Assembly (NCBI GenBank): GCA_036655895.1
Contig: JAVVPF010000014.1
Location: forward strand, 1-64,000
Reading direction: 5' to 3'
DNA from: Cloacibacillus sp.
GTDB lineage: Bacteria; Synergistota; Synergistia; Synergistales; Synergistaceae
DNA: 64,000 bases
This document shows positions 36,009 to 53,305 of this stretch, in pieces (the stretch's first letter is position 1; the number at the start of each line of letters is the position of its first letter). Position numbers and translations under genes: made by a program. Under the pieces are notes generated by a model. The model saw only the letters and a list, made by a program, of their open reading frames with translations, did not search any database and was not told where the DNA came from.

Positions 36009-37259
36009 ATGAAAGTTAAAAAGGTAATATGTTCCAAAGCGCTGACAGGGTTTTACATGGACGACAAAGAGGCTATCAAAGCCGGAGCCAAAGCTGACGG
36101 TTTTATCTATAAAGGTGAGCCGATAACCCCGGGGTTCAAAACTATCAGACAGCCCGGTGTCGCTATCTCCGTCATTTTTGTGCTTGAAGACGGACATATC
36201 GTCTACGGCGACTGCGCCGTCGCGCAGTATGCCGCAAGCTGCGGCCGCGAAGTGCCCAATACACCGGAATCCCTCATTAAAATGATAGAAAAATATGTAG
36301 TGCCTTATTTTGAAGGGATGGATATCAAGGAATTTAAGTCTACAGCCGAAATATTTGACCGCTATGAGTTTGAAGGGGAACGCCTTCCCGCCTCCATCCG
36401 CTACGGTGTCACTCAAGCGGTGCTTGAAGCTGTCGCGTACGAACAGAAGCTTACCATGTGCGAAGTGATATTAAAGGAATACAACCTCCCTGTCGACCTG
36501 ACGCCAGTCCGCATCAACGCGCAGTCAGGCGACGAGCGTTATACGAACGTGGACAAGATGATTCTCAAAAAGGTCGGTATGATGCCCCACGGACTTATAA
36601 ACAACGTCGAAGAGAAGCTTGGCAAAGACGGCCAGATATTCCTTGACTGGGTCAAATGGGTCACCGCTCGTATTTCCGAGATCGGCGAATCTGATTACAA
36701 GCCTGTCATGCGTTACGACGTCTACGGCTGCATGGGCAAGGCCTTCGATAATGACCTCGACAAAGTAGGGGAATATCTCATCAAAGTGGCAGAAGCGTGC
36801 GCGCCGTATGAAGTCTTCGTCGAAATGCCCATAGACATGAAGTCAAACGAGAAGCAGCTCGAAGCTATGAAATATCTGCGCAGCTATCTTGACAAGGCCG
36901 GATGCAGGCTGAAGCTGATCATTGACGAATATGCTAACACCTACGAAGAAATTGTTGAGTGGGTCGACGCAAAGGGCGCCGACATGGTCCAGGTGAAGAC
37001 GATAGACTTGGGCGGAATCAACAACATAGTAGAGGCGGACCTCTACTGCAAAAAGCACGGTGTCCTTGCCTACCAGGGCGGTACCTGCAACCAGACAGAC
37101 AAAGCAGCCATCGTCTGCGCAAACCTTGCTGTAGCTACGAAGCCATTTGCTATGGCGGGCACTCCCGGCATGGGCGTCGATGAAGGCGTTATGATCGTCA
37201 GCAACGAGCAGGAAAGACTGCTTGCCATCCTCAAAGCAAAACAGGAAGGCAAAATCTAG
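36009..37259 (+). CDS. mal: Methylaspartate ammonia-lyase
   Basis: A 416-aa enolase-superfamily enzyme converting (2S,3S)-3-methylaspartate to mesaconate and ammonia. The whole chain follows the Clostridium tetanomorphum enzyme (413 aa). Seen: LTGFYMDDKEAIKAGAKADG, VLEDGHIVYGDCA, QSGDERYTNVDKMILKK, PHGLINNVEEKLG (catalytic-site His), DVYG (metal Asp), and VQVKTIDLGGINN with the catalytic Lys near residue 330, then GGTCNQTD and GMGVDEG. The neighbouring mesaconase-type hydratase supplies the next step. Glutamate mutase, the usual upstream enzyme, is not in the window. Confidence 0.93.
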   Translation: MKVKKVICSKALTGFYMDDKEAIKAGAKADGFIYKGEPITPGFKTIRQPGVAISVIFVLEDGHIVYGDCAVAQYAASCGREVPNTPESLIKMIEKYVVPYFEGMDIKEFKSTAEIFDRYEFEGERLPASIRYGVTQAVLEAVAYEQKLTMCEVILKEYNLPVDLTPVRINAQSGDERYTNVDKMILKKVGMMPHGLINNVEEKLGKDGQIFLDWVKWVTARISEIGESDYKPVMRYDVYGCMGKAFDNDLDKVGEYLIKVAEACAPYEVFVEMPIDMKSNEKQLEAMKYLRSYLDKAGCRLKLIIDEYANTYEEIVEWVDAKGADMVQVKTIDLGGINNIVEADLYCKKHGVLAYQGGTCNQTDKAAIVCANLAVATKPFAMAGTPGMGVDEGVMIVSNEQERLLAILKAKQEGKI

Positions 37260-37358: not shown

Positions 37359-38882
37359 ATGATCAAGGTTGATGTCAGCAAATGTGTTGGATGCAAGGCT
37401 TGTGAGCAGGTGTGCCCCTCTGCTGCGATAATGGTGGCGGATAAAAAGGCGTCGGTAAACAGCAACTGCGTCCATTGTGTCACATGTATCAAATACTGTA
37501 AGTTCGGCGCCCTATCAACGGATGTCGTGGCCGAGGACCCGCTGCTTTGCCGTAACTGCGGCGTTAAATGCCGTATCCCAGAGGGAAAACTGGGCGCATG
37601 CAAGAGATTTCGCAATGAAAAAGGCGCACTTGCGATAGTAAGGCCGCTTCAAATACCCACCAACACCGCGCCAGATCCTGAGAAAATTGCCATAATGAAG
37701 CCGGTAGTGTCAGCTGTAGGAGCTGGCGCTGCCTATCCCGACTACAAGCCCGCCCCATACATCGTTACCGAAAAACGTGATGATTTTGACGTTGTGACCG
37801 TCGTTACAGAAGCGCCGGTATCATACAGCTCTATGATGGTCAAAATCGACACAAATGCCCATATTGGAGACGAAGGAGCGCTTGTGCGCCGTAGTGGGAG
37901 AGTGGTAGGCATAGTTACCACAGAACAGTATGGCTCGCATATATTGATTCTCGGCGGCGTCAACAAAGTCAAAGGCCCCGACGGCATGTATGTGGTAAAA
38001 ACTATGGCCGAGCTTGGCAATAAAGAAAAAGTTACGCTTACCGTTGACAACGGTTGCTCACTTGAGCTGCAGGTCGGAGAGCACCCGGTGATAAACGGCG
38101 AAGTTGACGACAAAATGCGTGTCGGATGCGGAGGCGCCTGCTGCGGTCTGTTCGCGCGTTCTCTTGCGCCGCTTATAGACGAGGCCATCATCCTTGATCA
38201 CCATATAACAGGCCTCTTCACGCAGCATCCCGCCGGAGCGGAGCAGAAGCCATACAGCGGCGTCACGCCCGTTGGACGTCTTGCCACGAACGGCCGTTAT
38301 TTCTTTGAGCACGGCGACGGCTGGGGCGGAACAAATATAAACGACCCAGTAGAAGCGATCAAAGATATAGACATGAGCATTGCGAAGGCCGGTATGAAGA
38401 TACTAGTTGCGGAGACGACGTGGCGTAAGATAGCGCTATTTGAGGTGACGGCTGACGGTAAACCTGTTCCCCTTGAGATCCCCGCAGAATTGGAGAGCTT
38501 CCGCAAAATGGCGGCCGACTGTTGCGAAGACAGCCGTGTCTCCGCTATGTACTACGCCGGAGTGGGCGGGAGCGCAAGAGCCGGTGTGACAGTGGACCCC
38601 ATCCAGATCACAAAGGCCGTACACAGAGGCGACGCGAACCTGACTATTGCGGGCGCTCCCACATACCTCATGCCGGGCGGCGGCATAACATTCCTTGCCG
38701 ACGTAGAAAAAATGATAGACCACCCCTTCAACTACACAGCGTCGCCTGCGGTGCTGGCTCCCATCGAATATACGATGACTGTCGAAAACTACACCAAAAT
38801 CAAAGGCCACATCCATGCCATGCGAACGAAAGATGAAGTGACAGAGGAAAAAAGATACGAACTCACCAAACTTAAGGACTAA
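37359..38882 (+). CDS. hnr: 6-hydroxynicotinate reductase-like Fe-S protein
   Basis: A 507-aa protein. The N-terminus carries two [4Fe-4S] ferredoxin motifs (CVGCKACEQVCPS and CVHCVTCIKYCKFG), then a third Cys cluster, CRNCGVKC with a later Cys in KLGACKRF, and a distal CGGACCGL. E. barkeri 6-hydroxynicotinate reductase is described as having two [4Fe-4S], one [2Fe-2S] and a covalently bound flavin; the visible Cys pattern fits. It would use ferredoxin-level electrons to reduce a hydroxylated pyridine-type ring. AAGGAG is eight bases from the ATG. Identity rests on architecture, recalled family description and operon partners; a database search was not possible. Confidence 0.68.
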   Translation: MIKVDVSKCVGCKACEQVCPSAAIMVADKKASVNSNCVHCVTCIKYCKFGALSTDVVAEDPLLCRNCGVKCRIPEGKLGACKRFRNEKGALAIVRPLQIPTNTAPDPEKIAIMKPVVSAVGAGAAYPDYKPAPYIVTEKRDDFDVVTVVTEAPVSYSSMMVKIDTNAHIGDEGALVRRSGRVVGIVTTEQYGSHILILGGVNKVKGPDGMYVVKTMAELGNKEKVTLTVDNGCSLELQVGEHPVINGEVDDKMRVGCGGACCGLFARSLAPLIDEAIILDHHITGLFTQHPAGAEQKPYSGVTPVGRLATNGRYFFEHGDGWGGTNINDPVEAIKDIDMSIAKAGMKILVAETTWRKIALFEVTADGKPVPLEIPAELESFRKMAADCCEDSRVSAMYYAGVGGSARAGVTVDPIQITKAVHRGDANLTIAGAPTYLMPGGGITFLADVEKMIDHPFNYTASPAVLAPIEYTMTVENYTKIKGHIHAMRTKDEVTEEKRYELTKLKD

Positions 38883-38892
38883 TGTGCGCTAA

Positions 38893-38921
38893 TGCCCCCC
38901 GGTGCAAACTAGGGGCGTTTT
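38893..38921 (+). terminator. Weak terminator before the TAXI binding-protein gene
   Basis: GCCCC / GGGGC stem with a 13-nt loop followed by GTTTTT. Likely partial termination inside the operon. Confidence 0.55.
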
Positions 38922-38964
38922 TCCGAGACAAAATGTTTCATAATTAGAGAGGAGAACTTTTATA

Positions 38965-39945
38965 ATGAAAAAGTTTTTTACGGTACTGGCTTTAGTGGCG
39001 GTAATCTTCTCAGCGGCAGGTTCTTTTTGCTCTTCTGCACAGGCGGCTCAGAAGCTTGAGCTGGCAATATGCGGCGGTTCTATAGGCGGCGCATGGGCGG
39101 CAATCGGCGAGGGGGTCGGCGAAGTTGTCAGGCGTAGTTATCCAGGATCAAACACTGCCTATGAAGTAGGTCAGGAAGCCGCCAACCTCGCGCTCGTATC
39201 GCGCGGTAAAATTCAGCTTGGCATAGCCCACGCCCAGCTTATTAAAATGGCTACGGACGGAAAAGATCCTTTTAAGAAAAAGATCGGGAACCTTCGCGCG
39301 CTTTGTGTTCTCTACAACGGAGCCCTAGAGCATTTCATCATCAAGGCGGATACAGGCCTAAAGAGCTTTGCCGATATCAAAACAAAAAAATATCCCCTCA
39401 AGGCCTACTTCAACACCAAAGATTCTTTTATGGATATCGTTGGCAAGAAAGTTATTGAAGCAGAGGGCATCACACCTGCCGATATTGAAAAAATGGGCGG
39501 CTATACAAAGAACAGCTCTATGGGCGCAGCTCTTGATCTTATGAGAGACGGCAAGATCGATGCATATAGCAATGTCATCCAGGTGCCTGCCAGCCACGTC
39601 GTAGATGCGGGGACCACCCTTAAATTGAATCTGCTTGGTATGACGCCGGCGGCACAGAAAAAGGTGAATGCGGAACTTGGCACCTATTCTACCGTGATTC
39701 CCAAAAAAGCCTATAATTTCCTTAAAAACGACGTTCCCACAGTTGGAGCCACAGTCATTCTGTTTACAAATTCCGATCTCCCAGACGACGAAGCCTATGC
39801 CATCCTAAAATCTATCAAAGACAACTTCCCCTATTTCTGCAATATCCACAGCTCACTTAAAGGTCTGAAATTTGCAGAGCTCAAAGATACCGCGCCCGTT
39901 CCGCTTCACCCTGGCGCAGTCAAGTTCTTTAACGAGAATAAGTAA
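38965..39945 (+). CDS. TAXI-family TRAP transporter solute-binding protein
   Basis: A 326-aa secreted or lipid-free binding protein. Signal peptide about residues 1-27 (FTVLALVAVIFSAAGSF, cleavage near AQAA). The mature start LELAICGGSIGGAWAAIGEGVGEVV is the TAXI-family ligand-binding opening, followed by TAYEVGQEAANLALVSRGKIQLGIAHA. TAXI proteins often bind glutamate or other acidic solutes. It works with the fused TRAP permease at 43256, four genes on. It is probably the importer for the substrate of this operon. Confidence 0.9.
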   Translation: MKKFFTVLALVAVIFSAAGSFCSSAQAAQKLELAICGGSIGGAWAAIGEGVGEVVRRSYPGSNTAYEVGQEAANLALVSRGKIQLGIAHAQLIKMATDGKDPFKKKIGNLRALCVLYNGALEHFIIKADTGLKSFADIKTKKYPLKAYFNTKDSFMDIVGKKVIEAEGITPADIEKMGGYTKNSSMGAALDLMRDGKIDAYSNVIQVPASHVVDAGTTLKLNLLGMTPAAQKKVNAELGTYSTVIPKKAYNFLKNDVPTVGATVILFTNSDLPDDEAYAILKSIKDNFPYFCNIHSSLKGLKFAELKDTAPVPLHPGAVKFFNENK

Positions 39946-39959
39946 GTTACCATTAAAAA

Positions 39960-39990
39960 GCAACGGGAGTTCCAAAGGAGCTCCCGTTGC
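39960..39990 (+). promoter_or_regulatory. Hairpin covering the ribosome site of the UPF0280 gene
   Basis: GCAACGGGAG / CTCCCGTTGC (10 bp) plus TCC/GGA around a mismatch. The AAGGAG at 39975-39980 and the TTG start at 39987 are inside the stem, so folding would hide the initiation region. No T run follows, so it is not an obvious terminator. Confidence 0.55.
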
Positions 39991-40886
39991 AAAACAGAGA
40001 TAAAACAATGTATCCAAACCCATATAGCGTAATACAGGACGGCGTCGTATATATCGACCACGGGCCCATCACTATGACTCTTGAAGCGCGCAGGGATGGT
40101 CATGCCTTTACCGAAGCGGCTATATCCGGAGCTGAGAGAGTTCTTGAGATATTTGACGAATTTGGAACGCACCTCAATTTTTTGCGCGGACAAGCGGGGA
40201 AGATCATTTCTATCCCAGATAGTCTGCCCCCTGCAGTGCGGAAAATGACAGAATCGGTGATGCTCCTCCAAGAGGATGATTTTACCCCGATGGCGGCGAT
40301 AGCTGGGACTACCTCGGATTTCGCCGTGGAAGCGATGACCGCCCACGGCGCCGATTACGCGCTTGTAAATAACGGCGGGGATATCGCATGGAGAATATCT
40401 CAGGAGCAAAAAGATTTTCTGAAGGTCGGCCTAATAAGCGATATAGACAACGGACGGCCTACCCATTCTTTGAAAATAAAATCGTTCAGTGCGATACGAG
40501 GACTGGCGACGAGCGGTCTTGGCGGACGCAGTCTGACACGAGGTATAGCATCCGCCGTAACGACGCTTGCCTCGGATTCTTCAAAGGCGGACGCAGCGGC
40601 CACTGCGATCGCCAATGCCTGTTACTGCGACGATCCGGCCATAAAACAATGTGTTGCTGAGGAGCTCGACTACGGCACAGATATCGCGGGGCTTCTTGTT
40701 ACAAAATCTGTAGGCTGTCTTAAGAGCGGAAGTGCCGAGCGCGCTCTTGCGGCGGGAAGCAGGAGGGCTGATCAGTTAATTGACAACGGTATGATTTTCG
40801 GCGCGATCATCTTTGTCGCCGGTCGTATGAATGTAGTGAGCTCACAGAAGAACGGGAGCCTTTTTGAGGTTTCCAAATTGTATTAG
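39987..40886 (+). CDS. UPF0280-family protein (ApbE-related fold)
   Basis: A 299-aa protein of the UPF0280 family, distantly related to ApbE-type FAD:protein FMN transferases. Seen: GPITMTLEARRDG, GTTSDFAVEAMTAHGADYALVNNGGDIAWR (the nucleotide-site-like NGGD is also an ApbE hallmark) and SLTRGIASAVTTLASDSSKADAAATAIANA. TTG at 39987 has AAGGAG six bases upstream; an ATG at 40008 gives seven fewer residues but has a poor ribosome site. Its position next to an hnr-like gene, whose studied relative has covalent flavin, suggests flavin attachment to that protein (inference). Confidence 0.8.
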   Translation: MQNRDKTMYPNPYSVIQDGVVYIDHGPITMTLEARRDGHAFTEAAISGAERVLEIFDEFGTHLNFLRGQAGKIISIPDSLPPAVRKMTESVMLLQEDDFTPMAAIAGTTSDFAVEAMTAHGADYALVNNGGDIAWRISQEQKDFLKVGLISDIDNGRPTHSLKIKSFSAIRGLATSGLGGRSLTRGIASAVTTLASDSSKADAAATAIANACYCDDPAIKQCVAEELDYGTDIAGLLVTKSVGCLKSGSAERALAAGSRRADQLIDNGMIFGAIIFVAGRMNVVSSQKNGSLFEVSKLY

Positions 40887-49150: not shown

Positions 49151-49948
49151 ATGACAGATAATAAAACCGCCGTCGTAAGAGGCGGCGGCGACCTTGCAAC
49201 AGGAATAATCTACAGACTCTGGAAGGCCGGCTACTCTGTGCTTGTGCTTGAAACAAAGTGTCCGCTTGTAGTACGCCGAACTGTAGCGGTTGCCTCAGCC
49301 ATCTTTGACGGTGCTGCCATGGTAGAGGATATGAAGTCCGTACGTATTGACTCTGTGGGAGAATTTACAAAAGGTTCTCATATTATACAAGTGCTTGTTG
49401 ATCCAGAAGGACAATCTATAGAAAAAATATCCCCAGACCTGGTCGTAGATGCCGTTATGGCAAAGAAAAACATTGGTACAACAAAAGATATGGCGCCGCT
49501 TGTCATTGCGATCGGGCCTGGATTTTCCGCGCCTCAGGATGTGCATGCCGTTATAGAGACAAAACGCGGCCACACGCTGGGACGCGTTATAACGAATGGC
49601 GCCGCTATTCCAAATACAGGCGTTCCGGGAATCATAAAAGGCTACAGCACGGAACGGCTGCTTCGCGCTCCAAAAGAGGGCTATTTGCTTCCGGTGCGTA
49701 AAATAGGCGACGAGGTGGCAGCAGACGAGGTCATAGGCTATGTTGACGGAATAGAGGTATGCTCAAAGCTTGACGGGATACTGCGAGGGCTCATTCATCC
49801 GCACGTTCATCTCACACAGGGGCTGAAGATAGGCGATGTTGATCCTCGCGGCGACGCCTCTCACTGCTGGAGCATAACGGACAAGGCTTTGGCTATTGCC
49901 GGCGGAGTGCTGGAAGTAATAATGAGTAAAGACTCAATCTTAAGGTAA
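49151..49948 (+). CDS. yqeB: YqeB/EF2563-type selenium-dependent molybdenum hydroxylase accessory protein
   Basis: A 265-aa protein opening TAVVRGGGDLATGIIYRLW, then LVLETKCPLVVRRTVAVASAIFDG, with a middle IGPGFSAPQDVHAVIETKRGH. These match the YqeB (EF2563) family, found with selenium-dependent molybdenum hydroxylases and thought to help place labile selenium or the cofactor. Last gene of the operon. It makes the hydroxylase encoded upstream a probable non-selenocysteine selenium enzyme, as reported for nicotinate dehydrogenase of E. barkeri. The ribosome site is weak (AGAGGT about 12 bases before ATG). Confidence 0.85.
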   Translation: MTDNKTAVVRGGGDLATGIIYRLWKAGYSVLVLETKCPLVVRRTVAVASAIFDGAAMVEDMKSVRIDSVGEFTKGSHIIQVLVDPEGQSIEKISPDLVVDAVMAKKNIGTTKDMAPLVIAIGPGFSAPQDVHAVIETKRGHTLGRVITNGAAIPNTGVPGIIKGYSTERLLRAPKEGYLLPVRKIGDEVAADEVIGYVDGIEVCSKLDGILRGLIHPHVHLTQGLKIGDVDPRGDASHCWSITDKALAIAGGVLEVIMSKDSILR

Positions 49949-52225: not shown

Positions 52226-53305
52226 TTATTGCTTTGCGCCTCCTATTATGCTTTTTTTATAATTTTTATCTGTAAGCTGGAATAATGTTTCAGCGTGCGG
52301 GGTGACGAGCGCCTCGTTTTTGCCGGAAAGCAAAAATACGGCGGCTATTTCGGGATTCTTTTTAAGAAAGGCGTCCGCCTTTTTCCGTCCCATGACGAAG
52401 AGCGCGGTGCAGAGGGCGTCGGCCTTTGTGGAGTCCGCGTCTATTATCGTGACGGAGGAGAAGTCTGAGATGGCGGGGTGTCCCGTCGCAGGGTCGAAGA
52501 TGTGATGGTAGCGCTTTCCGTCTTTTTCAAAGTATCGTTCGTACGGGCCAGAGGTGACTACGGAGGCGGCGGGCGTCATTATGACGCCGAAATATTCTCC
52601 GCGAGGGTGGTCGGGGTGCTGTAGGCCTATCTTCCAGAGGCCGCGTTTAGGCGCTTTTCCTATGAGGTCTATGTTGCCTCCAAGGTCTATTATTGCGCTT
52701 TGTACGTTCAGCTCCAAAAGGCGCGCCTTCAGAAGGTCGGCCGCGCGTCCCTTCGCTATGGCGCCAAGGTCTAAGGCCATGCCCTCCGGCGCTTTGACGA
52801 AGAATTTTCCATTGTCGTTTTTGAGAGTTATCTTGCCGTAGTCGGTGTTGCGCAGAGCGCGCGCTATCTCGTAGGCTTCGGGTATGCGCGCCTGAGGCGT
52901 GCCTATCTTCCACAGCTTCACCACGTCTCCGATGGCTGGGTTGAAGGCGCCGCCGGTGGCTTTCGCTGTTTTTCCGGCGCGTGATATGAGGGAATATGTT
53001 TTTTCGTCTACCGAAGTCCATTTGCCGCGCGCGGTGTTTATTCTGCCGACGTCGGAGGAGGCGATGTTTGCGGAAAAAAGCTCCTCAAGTTTCACCAAGA
53101 GGCCGTCGGCCTCTTTCAGCGAGGAATCTAATTTTTCTTTATCCGCGCCGTAGAGCGTGACGCGCACGTAGGTGCCCATGCGGTAGTTTTCGCTTGCGGC
53201 GCAGGTCTGCTGTGCCGTAGCCTGAGTTCTGCCGTAAATGAAGAAGGCGGCGCAAAAAAAAGCGGCCGCCGCTATTGTAAAACAGGTTGTTTTTTTGACC
53301 GTCAT
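52226..53305 (-). CDS. apbE: FAD:protein FMN transferase (ApbE)
   Basis: A 359-aa enzyme that attaches FMN through a phosphoester to Thr/Ser of extracytoplasmic redox proteins. N-terminal signal/anchor FTIAAAAFFCAAFFIYG, then YRMGTYVRVTLYG, GAFNPAIGDVVKLWKIG, ALDLGAIAKGRAADLLK, the nucleotide-site IIDLGGNIDLIG and HHIFDPATGHPA, all diagnostic. No classical lipobox. Gene order apbE, NusG-II, Gx is common in anaerobes. Its targets (for example RnfD/RnfG-type subunits) are not in the window. Confidence 0.94.
   Translation of the reverse strand: MTVKKTTCFTIAAAAFFCAAFFIYGRTQATAQQTCAASENYRMGTYVRVTLYGADKEKLDSSLKEADGLLVKLEELFSANIASSDVGRINTARGKWTSVDEKTYSLISRAGKTAKATGGAFNPAIGDVVKLWKIGTPQARIPEAYEIARALRNTDYGKITLKNDNGKFFVKAPEGMALDLGAIAKGRAADLLKARLLELNVQSAIIDLGGNIDLIGKAPKRGLWKIGLQHPDHPRGEYFGVIMTPAASVVTSGPYERYFEKDGKRYHHIFDPATGHPAISDFSSVTIIDADSTKADALCTALFVMGRKKADAFLKKNPEIAAVFLLSGKNEALVTPHAETLFQLTDKNYKKSIIGGAKQ

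Follow-up and report, generated by a model that had tools for sequence, protein, structure and literature searches.

In a 64,000-nucleotide stretch of contig JAVVPF010000014.1 from Cloacibacillus sp. (hereafter, the window), a gene for a UPF0280 protein (COG2122 group) accompanies a gene (hnr) for an iron-sulfur reductase of the 6-hydroxynicotinate reductase family (HNR), and this pairing turned out to be almost invariable across distant lineages. We lean, with moderate confidence, towards a reading in which UPF0280 attaches flavin to HNR in the cytoplasm as its dedicated maturation partner, and perhaps does so for enzymes of the COG1900 group as well. The homonymous reductase of Eubacterium barkeri reportedly contains Fe-S and a covalent flavin; if our reading is true, it would explain how such a flavin arises on a cytoplasmic reductase although the classical flavin transferase ApbE works outside the membrane. 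The genes concerned are as follows.

37356 (GTG) or 37359 (ATG) to 38882, plus strand: HNR-like iron-sulfur reductase, an open reading frame of 507-508 amino acids.
38965 to 39945, plus strand: solute-binding protein of a TAXI-family TRAP transporter, between the HNR and UPF0280 genes (TIGR02122, E 8.6e-49).
40008 (ATG) to 40886, plus strand, with an alternative TTG start at 39987: UPF0280 protein of the COG2122 group, predicted ApbE fold, without a signal peptide.

UPF0280 is located downstream of hnr on the same strand in 79 of 80 hnr loci, which are the best matches to the query from named genomes and not a random sample; the median gap is 9 nt, and in 75 of the 79 the genes lie within 200 nt of each other. 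At the sole locus without UPF0280 (L056) the contig ends inside hnr. The loci span Bacillota, Pseudomonadota, Desulfobacterota and one Hecatellales archaeon, and in most of those outside the window UPF0280 directly follows or overlaps hnr. Full-length HNR was found in 11 of 61 relatives and UPF0280 in the same 11, while on plasmids UPF0280 is present in 26 of 26 hnr records and hnr in 26 of 27 UPF0280 records. Simple P values for this co-occurrence are inflated by genome relatedness; nevertheless, so many lineages are involved and exceptions are so nearly lacking that a chance linkage is untenable. Thus, the co-occurrence of the two families, which the first-pass annotation had put forward as a check on its proposal of UPF0280 as a flavin transferase for HNR, was confirmed. 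A plasmid of Hydrogenophaga BPS33 (L026, 7917-8849) has four UPF0280 places without HNR, amid IS1071 copies and Rieske oxygenase genes.

HNR is not the only partner of UPF0280. Among 341 genomes of the class Clostridia, HNR is present in 2, HcyBio/DUF39 (COG1900) in 41, and UPF0280 in 43, which is the exact union of the two sets; of 12 HNR genomes, the nine that possess HcyBio too have a second UPF0280 copy, in several cases adjoining HcyBio. HcyBio/DUF39 was detected in none of the 61 relatives and is also missing from the genome of the window, and a tblastn search of plasmids with a HcyBio protein gave no match. In a tree of 64 UPF0280 proteins, the members linked to HNR, to HcyBio and to COG1900b (our own label for the ferredoxin-fused COG1900 group of loci L178-L188) form separate clades with one change each, supported at 100, 97 and 88 by a quick method. 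The distances between HNRs and between their UPF0280 proteins across loci are correlated with a Mantel r of 0.83, uncorrected for shared species history. Since UPF0280 pairs with two partner families in three clades, its function should be one that HNR-type reductases and COG1900 enzymes both require. HNR is not known for sulfur chemistry, and the fact that UPF0280 is tied equally strictly to such a family argues for a cofactor-maturation job common to its partners. The earlier notion of an ApbE relative dedicated to this reductase is therefore valid for the HNR-linked clade but not for the family, which is tied just as closely to COG1900/HcyBio.

The AlphaFold (AF2) model of UPF0280 (pLDDT 95.4) superimposes on the structure 2o34 with VIA Z 21.4, and on ApbE, Ftp and FmnB with VIA Z 14.3-17.9 over 203-220 aligned residues; as modeled, the protein is an ApbE double T-fold. 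At the sequence level the family profile (alignment A5) matches PDB 2o34 at 5e-21, and the window protein matches PRK04334.1-2 (COG2122 group) at E 1.6e-66, below the curated cutoff of that model, as well as PRK04334.1-1, -3 and -4. The ApbE family PF02424 is weakly matched by 32 of 42 UPF0280 members, some relatives reaching 5e-8; the window protein, at 14.9 bits, stays below its gathering score of 25.6. Three segments could be mapped onto ApbE by sequence motifs, their conservation being taken from the 42 UPF0280 sequences.

40371 to 40382, plus strand: N129-G130-G131-D132 block, corresponding to the GG[N/D]I strand of ApbE; G131 and D132 invariant.
40509 to 40529, plus strand: T175-S176-G177...R181, corresponding to the TSGxYER segment of ApbE; T175, S176 and G177 invariant, R181 in 40 of 42.
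40590 to 40604, plus strand: D202-A-A-A205-T206, corresponding to ApbE metal-site-1; D202 invariant, T206 in 41 of 42.

The ApbE-like NGGD block noticed in the first pass (NNGGD in full) is thus real, as is the lack of a signal peptide: there is no hydrophobic segment at the N-terminus. The metal-site-1 ligands of E. coli ApbE are D280 and T284 (PMC4767422), whose spacing D202 and T206 fit, and R181, five residues after the Ser, stands at the spacing of FmnB R262. With the fold, the GG[DN]I block, the TSG Ser, this Arg and the metal-site-1 Asp/Thr all shared with ApbE, Ftp and FmnB (PF02424), nucleotide or pyrophosphate chemistry by UPF0280 appears plausible. In contrast to those proteins, UPF0280 is tied to HNR and COG1900 rather than to FMN-binding-domain proteins.

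The acceptor consensus recognized by ApbE is D-x-x-[ST]-G-A-[ST], in which the Asp is replaceable with little effect, while substitution of Gly by Ala or of Ala by Val leaves about half of the modification (PMC12052999). The first-pass annotation saw no clear ApbE-type acceptor motif in the reductase; this is correct for the strict motif, but an acceptor-like D-x-x-T-x-x-T site does exist.

37788 to 37808, plus strand: candidate flavin acceptor motif D145-V-V-T148-V-V-T151 of HNR (numbered from GTG 37356).

In 98 HNRs, D145 is conserved in 92%, T148 and E152 in 100%, and residue 151 is Thr in 93 and Ser in 5. This is the one and only DxxTxxT site conserved at 85% or more in the HNR alignment (column-permutation P 0.0086); HcyBio together with COG1900b likewise has exactly one such site at the same threshold (P 0.0115). 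It reads DxxT[TS][GA]T in HcyBio, where its Thr is situated five residues before the Cys corresponding to Cys54 of L-aspartate semialdehyde sulfurtransferase (L-ASST), an essential residue (PMC12068725). In the COG1900b proteins the site is D-[IV]-[VI]-T-[GSTA]-A-T, with UPF0280 adjacent in 7 of 9 within short flanks, and one of them (L178/L180), itself a neighbor of UPF0280, matches the ApbE consensus exactly (DIVTGAT). Another HNR segment, S406-x-R-[AS]-G-V-T412, was considered as the acceptor and dropped; Thr151 was preferred as the only one of the two sites with an Asp at -6, a Ser/Thr at -3 and a counterpart in COG1900.

As to the reductase itself, it has an N-terminal 2[4Fe-4S] domain (Fer4), and the window protein has no further Pfam match. 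In the fold search with its AF2 model (mean pLDDT 92.8) the ferredoxin domain alone was matched, with no match to the catalytic domain among the matches listed. The alignment reveals six invariant cysteines (C65, C68, C72, C82, C258, and C390). Fer4 is matched by 30 of 42 aligned HNRs, the 12 without it being alpha- and betaproteobacterial picks, and for 22 of the 42 there is a weak match to the GcvT C-terminal barrel (PF08669; 4e-4 at best), which hints at what part of the catalytic domain may be. A separate ferredoxin-NADP reductase gene is present in several proteobacterial hnr loci (L023-L029, L058-L109).

The maturation we propose would proceed as follows. UPF0280 would bind flavin adenine dinucleotide (FAD) and Mg by its ApbE-type fold and metal site, dock on the newly made HNR and move flavin mononucleotide (FMN) onto a Thr or Ser of the latter, Thr151 being the best candidate. 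The covalent flavin would then receive electrons from the Fe-S clusters and pass them on to the heterocycle to be reduced; in Proteobacteria whose HNR lacks the Fe-S domain, an external ferredoxin or ferredoxin-NADP reductase, often encoded nearby, might feed the flavin instead. In the other UPF0280 clades the same reaction could take place on COG1900 proteins (HcyBio/L-ASST and the ferredoxin-fused group) at DxxT[TS][GA]T and DxxTxAT, respectively. An ApbE relative that acts in the cytoplasm on one soluble reductase would not be unprecedented, as a cytoplasmic ApbE for soluble fumarate reductase is known in Klebsiella and trypanosomatids (PMC12052999); however, those enzymes serve DxxSGAT-type acceptors, whereas UPF0280 is a distant relative devoid of the His.

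Several observations weigh against this reading. The catalytic His of ApbE (V. cholerae H257, FmnB H273) has no counterpart in the HNR-linked UPF0280 proteins, so that of the Asp-Ser-His triad only D202 and S176 are conserved, and the second-metal (Me2) ligand (E. coli E169, T. pallidum K165) corresponds by alignment to an invariant Ala106. Because both the general-base His and this ligand are missing, an ordinary ApbE mechanism cannot be assumed for UPF0280. On the acceptor side, strict D-x-x-[ST]-G-A-[ST] is absent from HNR, where VV replaces GA; the relaxed pattern, with GA dropped, was chosen after inspection of the sequences; and the motif is not alone, since Ser/Thr is near-invariant at about a dozen positions of HNR. 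The two partner families show no significant homology (hhalign P about 0.03 over 24 columns), and a Pfam scan of 42 HNRs up to E 10 returned no HcyBio match among those reported. HcyBio is present in the control genome of Synechococcus elongatus, yet the model used detected no UPF0280 there, which makes it a possible exception. Finally, a persulfide role has been proposed for COG2122 of methanogens and Desulfovibrio, and the same work notes that homology to the flavin-binding region is lacking (PMC5764234). On balance, the idea of a flavin transferase is favored by co-occurrence, fold and acceptor-like site, and is weakened by the incomplete active site, the equal tie to COG1900 and the published role in homocysteine synthesis. 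We do not claim HNR as a homolog of COG1900, given that local, global and sub-region hhalign comparisons and the Pfam scan were all without significance; the best local HNR-HcyBio profile alignment, weak as it is (P about 0.03), falls on the shared DxxTxxT segment. A sequence search of PDB found no HcyBio structure.

Among the alternatives, the one that fares best, though we still consider it unlikely, is that UPF0280 acts without any transfer of flavin to protein, i.e., as a structural subunit, an FAD/FMN-binding chaperone or an FAD pyrophosphatase that loads non-covalent FMN. The missing catalytic His would agree with an inability to transfer, the same fold is found in T. pallidum Ftp, which acts as an FAD pyrophosphatase (PMC4767422), and both the tight gene coupling, with its median gap of a few nucleotides, and the matching distances of the two proteins, not corrected by a tree, would fit a stable complex; conservation of an acceptor-like site in HNR and COG1900 speaks to the contrary, as does the covalent flavin reported for the E. 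barkeri enzyme.

Slightly less probable still is a role of UPF0280 in sulfur handling or in persulfide/Fe-S maturation, by which it would provide COG1900 proteins with sulfur and assist with the Fe-S clusters of HNR. COG2122 is required for homocysteine synthesis together with DUF39 and NIL/ferredoxin in Desulfovibrio vulgaris, while in Methanosarcina acetivorans MA1715 is needed when sulfide is low and aids its assimilation (PMC5764234). The many conserved cysteines of HNR and the single Cys found in 33 of 34 bacterial HcyBio-linked UPF0280 proteins agree with such a role. However, the HNR-linked UPF0280 proteins have no conserved Cys (the best column reaches 21%, and three sequences are without any), which makes a Cys relay unlikely in this clade; HNR pairs with UPF0280 as strictly as HcyBio does despite its want of known sulfur chemistry; and the retained ApbE metal site points to nucleotide chemistry. 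The window protein belongs to the same family as the studied COG2122 members (MA1715, DvMF_0044, and DVU1097, the protein of 2o34), but unlike those, which act with HcyBio/DUF39 in homocysteine synthesis, it falls into a separate HNR-linked clade. Among the papers listed by our literature search, none names UPF0280 or connects COG2122 with hydroxynicotinate reductase. A flavin transfer would be compatible with the sulfur phenotype, since an L-ASST deprived of flavin could not reduce its thio-intermediate and would thereby mimic a defect of sulfur assimilation.

It is very improbable that UPF0280 is a catabolic enzyme acting on a metabolite of the heterocycle pathway: it does reside within catabolic clusters, but it also pairs with HcyBio in biosynthesis, and the HNR-UPF0280 pair stays constant while the surrounding pathways vary (methylaspartate ammonia-lyase and fumarase-like neighbors here and in Lutispora, AA_synth pairs, and in Proteobacteria Rieske or acetophenone-carboxylase-like genes). 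In L024, L025, L028, and L029, HNR-UPF0280 is followed by a tandem pair of "amino acid synthesis family" genes. Just as improbable is the flavinylation of HNR by the classical ApbE with an incidental UPF0280 link, for which one could cite a complete ApbE in the window, encoded separately, as had been stated earlier:

52226 to 53305, minus strand: classical ApbE (FAD:protein FMN transferase; PF02424, 1e-83) with an N-terminal hydrophobic segment.

This protein retains the HHIFDP and AKG motifs and, by PDB matches, all catalytic motifs, but its N-terminus is signal-like, and the pairing of HNR with UPF0280 is near-universal and specific.

The remaining features of the window bear on the expression of the pair and on its metabolic setting.

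36009 to 37259, plus strand: methylaspartate ammonia-lyase, the gene before hnr.
38891 to 38919: weak hairpin followed by TTTTT in the gap between hnr and the TAXI gene (fold z -0.85).
39960 to 39990, plus strand: hairpin with a perfect 14-bp stem in the gap between the TAXI and UPF0280 genes, overlapping the TTG start (-27 kcal/mol, z -9.7).

The gene order, with the TAXI gene alone between hnr and UPF0280, accords with the operon suggested in the first pass, but the two hairpins do not allow us to call it a clean one; co-transcription of the three genes is probable rather than proven, because a terminator-like hairpin separates hnr from the TAXI gene. The hairpin at 39960-39990 is followed by TTTTT on the minus strand and by AAAA, not a T run, on the plus strand; it perhaps has a role in mRNA stability downstream of the binding-protein gene. 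As the TTG at 39987 sits inside this hairpin, ATG 40008 is the more likely start of UPF0280.

The gene next after UPF0280 on the plus strand encodes a molybdenum hydroxylase subunit. The whole cluster (29519-49948) comprises citE/citF-like, fumarase-like, amidohydrolase, methylaspartate ammonia-lyase, HNR, molybdenum hydroxylase, TRAP, and OYE-GltD genes, in an order largely kept in relatives and in Lutispora (L030). It probably serves N-heterocycle fermentation via 3-methylaspartate, mesaconate and citramalate. The gene at 49151-49948 is yqeB, a maturation gene of selenium-dependent molybdenum hydroxylases (1e-102), which suggests that the nearby hydroxylase is of the selenium-dependent kind. 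HNR relatives on plasmids are annotated as 6-hydroxynicotinate reductase, the name of the E. barkeri enzyme, whose nicotinate cluster was not recognized among the loci compared; the cluster of the window differs in having methylaspartate ammonia-lyase and citrate-lyase-like genes, from which it follows that its substrate is probably not nicotinate fermented by the E. barkeri route.

Homocysteine synthesis in sulfate reducers and methanogens depends on COG2122, for which no biochemical role has been agreed upon. With candidate target residues named, the role of UPF0280 becomes directly testable, beyond its annotation as "sulfur trafficking." More tentatively, and with less conviction than we hold for HNR, we suppose that the whole UPF0280/COG2122 family may represent a second lineage of flavin transferases, cytoplasmic and lacking the His, with HNR-type ring reductases and COG1900 enzymes as substrates. 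If this is true family-wide, L-ASST, and perhaps the coenzyme M synthase MMP16, would be covalent flavoproteins that have so far escaped recognition, their FMN being held by the Thr that precedes the persulfide Cys54 by five residues; MA1715 would then act as a flavin transferase, not as a sulfur carrier.

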